Shown here one piece after another: positions 57,182-60,433 of a stretch of DNA of 64,000 nt. Position 1 is the stretch's first letter; every line of letters starts with the position of its first letter. This DNA is from Fibrobacter sp. UWP2. Its GTDB lineage: Bacteria; Fibrobacterota; Fibrobacteria; Fibrobacterales; Fibrobacteraceae. A program made the translations under genes and the position numbers. The DNA is taken from assembly GCF_900141705.1 (NCBI RefSeq), contig NZ_FQYM01000011.1, forward strand, positions 1 through 64,000. The letters run 5' to 3'. The notes below the pieces were generated by a model. The model did no database searches. It worked only from the letters and a program-made list of their open reading frames with translations, and was not told the DNA's origin.

Positions 57182-57685
57182 ATGAGTATATGTCCTTTTT
57201 GCAAGTCCGAAGTTGCCGAGATAAAAATCCACCACCTGGATTTACGGATATGCCCCAAGTGCTATTCCACGTTTTTCCCATGCGACCAGACTATGGCTTT
57301 TCGCGGTGACCTGACCGACAAGTCCCGGGAATTGTGGTACAAGGCGCTCCTTGCCAAGAACCCAGTGGACCCCGATACGTCGAACGCCTGCTGTATTGAT
57401 CACGGAGAACCTCTGGTCGAGGGCAAACTACCCGATTACGGGTACGACGGCAAGGTGACTACCTGTTGCAAAATGTTCCACTTGACGCCTTCGATGACGC
57501 TCGAGTTGCTGAAGCACACTCTGGATACGGGTTTCCAAAAACCGGAGGCAAAGGGGAAACATCACTTTTTCTTTATTCGTTGGTTGGATGCTTTGGTTTC
57601 TAAGTTGTTTGGAGAGAAAATGCCCGAGGACGATCCCTTGGACGCGATACAATACAATCTCTACATAAAGAAATACATTGAATAG
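57182..57685 (+). CDS. Zinc-ribbon protein
   Basis: 167 residues from the ATG at 57182. MSICPFCKSEVAEIKIHHLDLRICPKCYSTFFPC holds two Cys pairs of a zinc ribbon. A second set follows (NACCIDHGEPL, KVTTCCKMFHL), possibly another metal site. The C-terminus is helical (FIRWLDALVSKLFGEKMPEDDPLDAIQYNLYIKKYIE). No family named. First gene of a four-gene run with the two membrane sensor-like proteins and an AI-2E-type permease. Confidence 0.8.
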   Translation: MSICPFCKSEVAEIKIHHLDLRICPKCYSTFFPCDQTMAFRGDLTDKSRELWYKALLAKNPVDPDTSNACCIDHGEPLVEGKLPDYGYDGKVTTCCKMFHLTPSMTLELLKHTLDTGFQKPEAKGKHHFFFIRWLDALVSKLFGEKMPEDDPLDAIQYNLYIKKYIE

Positions 57686-57686
57686 C

Positions 57687-58415
57687 ATGAGAAAGACATA
57701 CGCCGTATTGGCTGCCGTTGCGGCCGTCATTTTAATCGTTTATTCGCTTTTGCCCGACAAGTTCTTTGAAGAAAGCGTTTTCCCGACACAGGAAAAAATT
57801 ACTGTCATTGAGTATGACGACGCTACAGACGGTGGCGAGTCTGTCGCCAAGATGACGCAAGGGGATTCCTCGCTCTCATTTGAATGCACGCTGGGCACAG
57901 ACACATCCAAGTTCGCCTGGTGTGGGCTCTTGTGGAACATGGATCCCGACAGTGCGATGGATTACCGCAACTGGACGTTTGTCGATACACTTGTTTTTGA
58001 CGTTGAAGCCCATGGTACGCAGGAAATTCTTGTGAAAGTGTGGGCGTACGACCCCGACGTGACCGACATCAGCAAGCCCAAGACTTTTCGCCTGCTGATG
58101 AAGGAAGTCCCCCTGAAGGAGGGGAGACAACGCGTGGCGCTCCCGATGGAACAGCTCTATACGCCCGACTTTTGGTACGACGATGGTCACGTTGACCGCG
58201 AACTCAAACAGCGCCATCAAGAGACGGTGGCTCGCTTAGAAATTGCCCCGGGTTGGAACCAGCCCCGTGGTCAGCGGTTTCAGTTGAAGTTCTTTGAAAT
58301 CAAGGCGACGGGAGTCAGCAACTTCTACTTTGGTATAGTTCTGTTCGCCTTCTTGGGAATCACCATTGTAGCCGTGGGCCGCCGTCACAAGTCAAAAAAC
58401 GATGTCGAAGATTAG
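57687..58415 (+). CDS. Membrane protein with extracytoplasmic beta-sandwich, HTH-less paralogue
   Basis: 242 residues from the ATG at 57687, one base after the previous stop. Membrane helix at about 7-25, an extracytoplasmic domain (about 35-210) with DYRNWTFVDTLVFDVEAHGTQEILVKVWAYDP, and a second helix at about 213-232, then a short basic tail. The same layout as the following protein, but without its cytoplasmic HTH. It overlaps that gene by 14 bp. Confidence 0.75.
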   Translation: MRKTYAVLAAVAAVILIVYSLLPDKFFEESVFPTQEKITVIEYDDATDGGESVAKMTQGDSSLSFECTLGTDTSKFAWCGLLWNMDPDSAMDYRNWTFVDTLVFDVEAHGTQEILVKVWAYDPDVTDISKPKTFRLLMKEVPLKEGRQRVALPMEQLYTPDFWYDDGHVDRELKQRHQETVARLEIAPGWNQPRGQRFQLKFFEIKATGVSNFYFGIVLFAFLGITIVAVGRRHKSKNDVED

Positions 58416-59313
58416 TAAAGTCATAGGCGTTGCCGCCTTCGCAGTGGCGTTTGGCGTTTGGGGCGTCGTGTTCTTGATGTTCAGGAACACCGCCTTGACG
58501 ATGTTCCCCGGGGGCGGTTACGAAGTTTACGCGCTTACCGATAATGCTGCGGGCGGGTATTCCACCTCGGATTTGACTGTGGGTGATTCCAGTATTGCCG
58601 CTCATATTAATGTGCGCAGTGGGAAGGCCTACCCCTATGCGGGGATAGGCTTCAATTTGATGTCTTTGAACCATCGTCCGTCGGGCTACTTCGATTTCTC
58701 CCGGTTTGATTCCGTTGCCGTCGTGGTGGCGGCCGGTCGTATGCGTACAGTGACGTTCCGCATCATGACCAACGACCCGGTGTATTCCAGGGCGGGCGCT
58801 TATTTGACCTACCGCCCCCTGGAGGTGCAACTACCGGTTGGCGCTTCGTTTGCCGAACTCAAAGCGTCACTTGTCGATTTCAAGAACAAGGAATGGTGGT
58901 TGGTGGCGCAAGGCCTCGATAAGGATGACGGCCTCTCGTATTTTTACAACTCTGCCGTGTTCGAAGTATTCAATGGCGAAAGCACATTGCGCGGCATCCC
59001 CGACGATATCGAACTCAAGTCCATTCGCATGTGGGGCGAAAATCGCGATTTCCAAAAGGGCATGTTCTTTGCGGCGGGCTTGCTTGTGTTTTTGCTTGCG
59101 GGCTTTGTGACTTTTTGGGTTCGCGCATCCAAGGCAAAACAAAATCCGTTGCAACCCAAAATGGAGATGGCAGCCAAGTTGCTAAAAACTACCGACAAGT
59201 CGGTGGCCGAAATCGCCATTGCGGTGGGTGAAAAGTCCCCGTCGCAGTTCGAAGGTGATTTCAAAAAAATCTACGGCAAAAAGCCGCTGGACTACAGGAG
59301 GGAGAATGTATAG
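58402..59313 (+). CDS. Membrane-anchored AraC-type regulator
   Basis: 303 residues. Membrane helix at about 7-27. An extracytoplasmic beta-sandwich (about 35-210), with GYFDFSRFDSVAVVVAAGRMRTVTFRIMTNDP, resembles CIA30/carbohydrate-binding folds. A second helix spans about 217-240. Then a cytoplasmic C-terminus (about 253-303) matches the second half of an AraC-family HTH: MAAKLLKTTDKSVAEIAIAVGEKSPSQFEGDFKKIYGKKPLDYRRE. It looks like a one-piece transmembrane regulator. Only one of the two usual HTH motifs is obvious. Overlaps neighbours on both sides. Confidence 0.8.
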   Translation: MSKISKVIGVAAFAVAFGVWGVVFLMFRNTALTMFPGGGYEVYALTDNAAGGYSTSDLTVGDSSIAAHINVRSGKAYPYAGIGFNLMSLNHRPSGYFDFSRFDSVAVVVAAGRMRTVTFRIMTNDPVYSRAGAYLTYRPLEVQLPVGASFAELKASLVDFKNKEWWLVAQGLDKDDGLSYFYNSAVFEVFNGESTLRGIPDDIELKSIRMWGENRDFQKGMFFAAGLLVFLLAGFVTFWVRASKAKQNPLQPKMEMAAKLLKTTDKSVAEIAIAVGEKSPSQFEGDFKKIYGKKPLDYRRENV

Positions 59314-60433
59314 ACGTTGGACCCTGGATAGGGTGATGCATTTTATTTTGATTTCCCTCGGCATCGTAATCGCCCTCCTGTTGGTTGATTACCTGCAAGG
59401 GGTGCTCTTCCCGTTCTTTGCTGCGTTTTTGCTCGCCTATATTGCTGACCCGTTGGTCAACAAGCTGCAGGTCAAAGTCAAGCACCGCATTATTGCCGTG
59501 CTCATTGTGTTGATTTCTGCGATTCTTATTGTGGCGGGGGCGCTTCGCATCTTTATCCCGATGGTAGTGAGCGAAGTGCGGAACCTCGGGGTTCTCATTT
59601 CTAAAATGTTCAACGATTCCGACTGGTCCGCTCGCATAGCCAACCTGATGCCGGGCGACCTGTACGAGACTGTTCGCGGGATGGTCTCGTGGGAACAGCT
59701 GGGCGCCGCCATGCAAAGCCTTGACTTTTGGAACGAAGTGCAGACCATTGCATCCAAAGTATTGCCGGGCGCCTGGGGCGTGCTTTCTTATACAAGTACC
59801 ATCGTGCTCTGGTTTTCCGGTGCCGCGATTATCTTTATGTACCTCGTGTTCATCATGCTCGATATGCCCAAGCTTCGTCGTGGCGTGTTGAGCTTGATTC
59901 CCAAGCGCTTTAAAAAGGAGGCGAGCTCCTTTGCTGCCGAAACAGACAAATTCATGGGAACGTATTTCCGTGCGCAATCTTTGGTCGCTTTGACGGTCGG
60001 TATTTTGTATGCAATCGGTTTTGGCGTGATGGGACTGCCTATGGGGGTCGCCTTTGGACTTTTCTCTGGTGCGCTCAACATGATTCCCTACATGCAGCTT
60101 ACGACGATCCCGCTCGCCTTGCTTTTGTCGGTGGTTTACTCGCTCAACACGGGCATGCCTTACTGGCAGGTTGCGCTGATTATTGCCGCCATCTATCTGG
60201 TGGTGCAGGTCTTGCAAGACTTTTTCTTGGTGCCGCACATCGTCGGGAAGTCCATGGATTTGCCGCCTGTAGGCATTTTGCTGAGTCTTTCAATATGGGG
60301 TAAGTTGTTGGGATTCTTAGGGTTACTCGTTGCCATCCCCTTTACCTGCCTGTGCCTGGTGTACATTCGCAAACTTCAAGAGCGAGCCGAGGAAGCACGA
60401 GGGAGTCAGGTCGGACCTCGCCCCGAGGCTTGA
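59306..60433 (+). CDS. AI-2E-family transporter (PF01594)
   Basis: 375 residues from the ATG at 59306, after GGAGGGAGA; it overlaps the regulator's stop by 8 bp. About eight hydrophobic segments. GVLFPFFAAFLLAYIADPLVNKL at the N-terminus, VFIMLDMPKLRRGVLSLIPKRFKKEASSFAAETDKFMGTYFRAQ in the middle, and GLPMGVAFGLFSGALNMIPYM, VGKSMDLPPVGILLSLSIWGKLLGFLGLLVAIP toward the end are the family pattern. Members include TqsA and Na+/H+ antiporters; the substrate here is unknown. Coupled to the AraC-type sensor. Confidence 0.9.
   Translation: MYRRWTLDRVMHFILISLGIVIALLLVDYLQGVLFPFFAAFLLAYIADPLVNKLQVKVKHRIIAVLIVLISAILIVAGALRIFIPMVVSEVRNLGVLISKMFNDSDWSARIANLMPGDLYETVRGMVSWEQLGAAMQSLDFWNEVQTIASKVLPGAWGVLSYTSTIVLWFSGAAIIFMYLVFIMLDMPKLRRGVLSLIPKRFKKEASSFAAETDKFMGTYFRAQSLVALTVGILYAIGFGVMGLPMGVAFGLFSGALNMIPYMQLTTIPLALLLSVVYSLNTGMPYWQVALIIAAIYLVVQVLQDFFLVPHIVGKSMDLPPVGILLSLSIWGKLLGFLGLLVAIPFTCLCLVYIRKLQERAEEARGSQVGPRPEA

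Follow-up and report, generated by a model that had tools for sequence, protein, structure and literature searches.

A candidate glycan sensor/co-sensor pair with an optional single AraC helix-turn-helix in Fibrobacter

The operon and its genes

The window analyzed here, a stretch of 64,000 nt from Fibrobacter sp. UWP2 (contig NZ_FQYM01000011.1), includes two overlapping genes for small membrane proteins, only the second of which ends in a helix-turn-helix (HTH), followed by a permease gene. The question raised is whether they regulate that permease, as a preliminary description had proposed (a one-component membrane sensor with a co-sensor, reporting on sugar or envelope state and controlling an exporter), or have some other role. 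The reading developed below is that they belong to a CBM11-type family of transmembrane carbohydrate sensors and in Fibrobacter act together as glycan sensor and co-sensor, output through a single HTH being optional; the case for and against it seems evenly balanced. The features concerned are:

57182..57685, + strand: Z, opening gene of the operon, 167 aa with an N-terminal zinc ribbon (CxxC...CxxC), from the translation
57687..58415, + strand: A, 242 aa, transmembrane helix (TM), CBM11-like sandwich, TM, no HTH; paralogue of B
58402..59313, + strand: B, 303 aa, TM, CBM11-like sandwich, TM, single AraC HTH
58483..59043, + strand: periplasmic CBM11-like sandwich of B, residues 28-214 (Foldseek, VIA-align and CIA30 matches)
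59149..59310, + strand: AraC linker helix and second HTH of B, residues 250-303 (Pfam, model helices and structural match)
59296..59301, + strand: AGGAGG, codons R299-R300 of B and also the Shine-Dalgarno sequence of P, 4 nt 5' of the P ATG
59306..60433, + strand: P, permease of the AI-2E/UPF0118 family, 375 aa (PF01594, 160.8 bits)

All four genes are co-directional, with gaps near zero or overlapping reading frames (14 nt for A/B, 8 nt for B/P in the window). The genome (G000) comprises 3.23 Mb in 72 contigs, and the closest named record to B belongs to a MAG of Fibrobacter recovered from horse faeces (72% identity). The operon was found in all Fibrobacter genomes at least 85% complete (73 searched), and of 68 operons, drawn from 67 Fibrobacter genomes, 67 retain the order Z-A-B-P. 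In all 68, Z comes first and adjoins A, or B where A is absent. The A and B frames overlap by 4-20 nt in 32 of the 34 operons whose B has an HTH, and are abutting or near in one more; since both the A/B and the B/P frames overlap in most operons, coupled translation is suggested. The earlier statement that both genes overlap or abut the permease gene holds for B, but A overlaps B and abuts Z, a gene missing from that description, rather than P. No glycoside hydrolase genes adjoin the Fibrobacter operon.

Z matches Zn_ribbon_TFIIB (Pfam) under the cut-off (E 0.008), and also has a conserved aromatic stretch close to its C-terminus. The sole operon without A (L071:1970-4364, genome G006) has Z followed directly by B; this may be an assembly matter, the G006 genome being 4.9 Mb with 8% contamination.

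Sensor domains of A and B

AlphaFold2 models built with 49-50 natural homologues give both proteins the helix, beta-sandwich, helix layout first described from the sequence: TM 3-27, sandwich 29-213 and TM 215-245 in B (mean pLDDT 92.2), and TM 2-21, sandwich 26-210 and TM 213-241 in A (pLDDT 88.5). Comparison by hhalign shows the two to be homologous from TM1 through the sandwich to TM2 (probability 98.9, E 1.6e-17), which upholds the shared layout and disposes of the concern that the two sandwich domains might be unrelated.

A search of PDB sequences with A gave no match up to E 1. By structure, the B sandwich matches CtCBM11 (6r31) at E 3.8e-9 in Foldseek, and VIA-align superposes it on CBM11 1v0a with Z 16.0 and an rmsd of 3.6 over 162 residues; the A sandwich gives Z 16.2 with 1v0a. 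The complex I assembly factor CIA30/NDUFAF1 (7zkq), which has one common fold with CBM11, is equally near both (Z 16.2 and 16.8). CIA30 is also the sole Pfam family touched by most B sandwiches (36 of 49 at E <= 0.1, best E 5.1e-5), the B of the window reaching 17.3 bits against PF08547, under the cut-off of 24. Sugar sensing, as originally suggested, gains some ground, in that the CBM11-like fold and the cellulase-linked relatives described below make a carbohydrate ligand plausible for A and B; a sugar ligand may be supposed for these sandwiches, recognizing that a CBM11 fold alone proves no sugar binding.

The single AraC HTH of B

The tail of B (residues 253-303) reaches 35.1 bits for HTH_18 and 33.4 bits for HTH_AraC, above the respective cut-offs of 33.6 and 26.6, although covering only positions 32-79 of the former and 1-42 of the latter. 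Its helices in the AlphaFold2 model (250-263, 268-274, 280-291 and 295-302) superpose on the AraC DNA-binding domain of 3oio (Z 11.7, rmsd 0.8 over 56 residues) and on AdpA 3w6v (Z 10.0, rmsd 0.7 over 54), so that the lack of any HTH fold, which would have undone the earlier description, was not what was found. The tail corresponds to the linker helix and the second of the two AraC HTHs. The linker helix begins about 5 residues past the modelled TM2, and the first HTH is therefore gone. A has no HTH in any operon examined. The claim of an AraC-type HTH solely in B accordingly stands as to scores and fold, but for just one HTH of the usual two. Two HTH motifs are a defining feature of AraC/XylS regulators (PMC10766802); by this definition B is not one, although its HTH is AraC-type in both sequence and fold.

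Recognition helices were compared between 34 Fibrobacter HTHs and 13 full-length relatives from other families of the phylum, in which the AraC domain is complete. Position 284 is Glu in all 34 Fibrobacter sequences and Asn in 12 of the 13 relatives; position 277 is Glu, Ala or Val in Fibrobacter and Tyr or Phe in 13/13 relatives; and His at 282, found in 12/13 relatives, occurs in none of the 34. At position 285, 32/34 Fibrobacter HTHs carry Arg or Lys, and the B of the window has Gly285. Judged by these alignments, the recognition helix of Fibrobacter B is conserved but altered, in a pattern private to the genus. An NCBIfam search gave only weak HTH matches to named AraC regulators, far under their cut-offs, so that a regulon cannot be assigned in this way, and a promoter scan found three sites where 2.7 were expected, a chance level.

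Loss of the HTH within Fibrobacter

In 34 of the 68 operons B has no HTH, while the operon itself is retained. Mapping HTH presence onto a tree built with Z, A and P requires at least five changes, four of them demanded by well-supported branches alone. This count cannot itself separate gain from loss, but about five or six losses are favored, since the outgroup relatives have the full domain and since one case shows a deletion directly: relative to their sister G030, genomes G013 and G070 lack exactly 150 bp of B, in frame, comprising the HTH. The last seven codons are left, and with them AGGAGG and the overlap with the permease ATG. In a second lineage (G064, G045 and G032) a GAGG-containing tail has also been kept (GGAGG in G064). 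The tail is evidently spared because AGGAGG doubles as the ribosome binding site of the permease. In three genomes (G035, G053 and G011) TM2 of B has been lost as well.

Where present, the HTH is under constraint much like that of the sandwich, with dN/dS of 0.098 (bootstrap 0.055-0.153) and 0.089 (0.068-0.112), respectively, over 11 independent pairs; the sandwich of HTH-less B proteins is still constrained at 0.115. These values rule out a decaying pseudodomain. The HTH in B is useful, yet dispensable, as it is absent from half of the operons, and with the operon kept in all of these, transcriptional control cannot be the core function common to these operons. A replacement AraC protein was also considered for the HTH-less genomes, but several (G032, G035, G045) have none. 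Almost identical genomes that differ in whether B has an HTH, such as G030 versus G013 and G070, amount to a natural knock-out series for the output domain.

Full-length relatives and a GGDEF paralogue

A search for the fused architecture across Fibrobacterota, one of the checks proposed at the outset, located it, but in families other than that of Fibrobacter, and with glycoside hydrolases rather than an exporter as neighbors. There the TM, sandwich, TM arrangement is joined to a complete AraC domain, matching HTH_18 over its full length in all ten tested. Glycoside hydrolase genes are adjacent to the regulator, or just beyond it, in six of 12 full-length loci examined:

L044: neighbor GH5
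L082: neighbors GH5 and GH30
L083: neighbor GH2
L084: neighbor GH9
L086 (G096:C547): neighbors two GH9, the only GH9 genes in G096
L047: a secreted CBM-like gene just downstream, then GH94

The remaining six of these distant loci have no glycoside hydrolase neighbor. Each genome counted has no more than 6-20 GH9 and GH5 genes together, so chance neighborhood is unlikely, and the full-length relatives probably switch the neighboring cellulase and hemicellulase genes. They also provide named loci for testing. At another locus (L085:68-2318, G109) two TM-sandwich proteins are encoded in tandem by overlapping genes, reminiscent of A and B except that the AraC domain is complete in both; next to the pair is a gene for an ABC-2 transporter.

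A further paralogue of A and B, at L033:3841-5163 (G000:C3, about 97840-99163), has the order TM, CBM11-like sandwich, TM, GGDEF, and is widespread across the genus. From its domain order, it would couple an A/B-type sensor to a diguanylate cyclase. When the sensor domains are placed in a tree, A, B and the GGDEF proteins each form one clade among the full-length relatives (96-100% support), and the GGDEF clade adjoins one full-length relative (99/94); branches are long and the deep order is weakly supported. Recent duplication of A and B within the genus is disfavored by their separate clades, with the same caution as to deep branches. The simplest history is that a single sensor family lost its output in A, kept half of it in B and exchanged it in the GGDEF proteins. 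Overall, the Fibrobacter pair looks like an old cellulose-sensing regulator that has been dismantled and reused.

The permease and possible roles of the pair

P, the only AI-2E/UPF0118 member in its genome, matches PF01594 over its full length. No LuxS was found in this genome (100% complete), so AI-2 is unlikely as the substrate exported by P. Certain relatives are Na+(Li+)/H+ antiporters (PMC7221264, PMC9134010). P may act together with A and B.

One such link, and the one nearest to the preliminary description, is that B is an ordinary AraC-type one-component regulator controlling an adjacent exporter. The HTH score above the cut-off and the co-directional, overlapping genes are in its favor, but it has one HTH of two and a changed recognition helix, half of the genus has no HTH while the permease is unchanged, and without LuxS there would be no AI-2 to be exported; it is considered very improbable.

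In the mechanism put forward here instead, the periplasmic CBM11-like domains of A and B would bind a plant-wall or envelope glycan, the two proteins forming a membrane-anchored sensor/co-sensor pair in which A has no output domain. Both would descend from phylum-wide one-chain regulators with TM, CBM11-like domain, TM and complete AraC domain. In lineages with the HTH, B would relay the state of the periplasmic ligand through TM2 to its single HTH, and this HTH would act at a promoter, probably as a dimer. We infer that A pairs with B and that the single HTH binds DNA and has target genes. More broadly, and only tentatively, transmembrane CBM11-type one-component regulators with AraC or GGDEF outputs could serve the Fibrobacterota as polysaccharide sensors; the single HTH of Fibrobacter, present in one member of a pair of homologous sensors, would be a working minimal output, switched off in some lineages by in-frame deletion.

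The constraint on the tail could also be met without DNA binding, if the AraC HTH has turned into a protein-interaction module, docking for example on the permease or another cytoplasmic partner. This would suit a strongly constrained, lineage-specific pattern (invariant D265, S267, A269, E270 and E284, with K278 in 32/34), the loss of the aromatic (277) and His (282) conserved in the relatives, the replacement of Arg by Gly285 in the window, and the absence of the first HTH. With Arg or Lys at 285 in 32/34, a fold that is fully AraC-like and HTH_18 scores above the curated cut-off in most members, such a role, plausible given the altered helix, is nevertheless judged rather unlikely. Another possibility sees A and B as accessory subunits or assembly factors for the permease or the envelope, with the HTH as a tolerated leftover, repeatedly lost. 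It draws on the constancy of gene order (67/68) whether or not the HTH is present, on a B sandwich equally constrained in its absence (0.115 vs 0.096), on the additional loss of TM2 in three genomes and on several complete HTH-less genomes without any HTH_18 protein to replace it; the sandwich fold, moreover, is as near the assembly factor CIA30/NDUFAF1 as it is to CBM11. A dN/dS of 0.10 over many lineages is not expected of a leftover, however, and this possibility is considered unlikely.

Comparison with known systems

The sensor/co-sensor arrangement proposed for A and B is most easily compared with VtrA/VtrC and ToxR/ToxS, where two genes, likewise adjacent and overlapping, encode an HTH protein tethered to the membrane and a co-sensor in the periplasm that lacks an output (PMC9214523). 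In those systems the HTH is N-terminal and of VtrA/ToxR type, and the co-sensor, for bile or lipids, is lipocalin-like (PMC9214523), whereas the HTH of B is C-terminal and AraC-type, and A and B are both CBM11-like homologues. The full-length relatives recall RsgI of Clostridium thermocellum, where an extracytoplasmic carbohydrate-binding module is coupled through a TM to transcription of cellulase genes (PMC4711584). RsgI holds a sigma-I factor (PMC4711584), while here the AraC HTH is on the same chain; the cytoplasmic part of B has no anti-sigma (RsgI-N) domain, and the operon has no sigma gene. The A/B set would work like the co-component systems and its full-length relatives like RsgI, but since defining features of each were looked for and are absent, they are members of neither.

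The hybrid two-component systems of Bacteroidota also sense glycans in the periplasm and respond at polysaccharide genes through an AraC-type output (PMC10766802). A and B are small proteins with two TMs and no histidine kinase or receiver domain, which bears out the distinction from these systems drawn originally. A recent review lists hybrid two-component systems, ECF sigma/anti-sigma pairs and catabolite repression as the usual control of carbohydrate-enzyme genes (PMC10766802). The full-length relatives look like a further system, with a carbohydrate-binding module joined across the membrane directly to an AraC domain; if the broader proposal above is true, CBM11-type one-component sensing would take its place alongside the hybrid two-component and sigma/anti-sigma modes. 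Literature searches found no published account of plant-polymer sensing by Fibrobacter, and nothing relevant on membrane AraC regulators in the genus.

As to the sensor domain itself, it may be compared with CtCBM11 of Lic26A-Cel5E (PDB 1v0a, 6r31), the fold of which the A and B sandwiches have (Z about 16), but at 8-12% identity and in a membrane-anchored form outside any enzyme. Sandwiches related to that of B also occur in long proteins (L143, L144) from UBP3 and Auribacterota that, judged by eye, resemble glycoside hydrolases.
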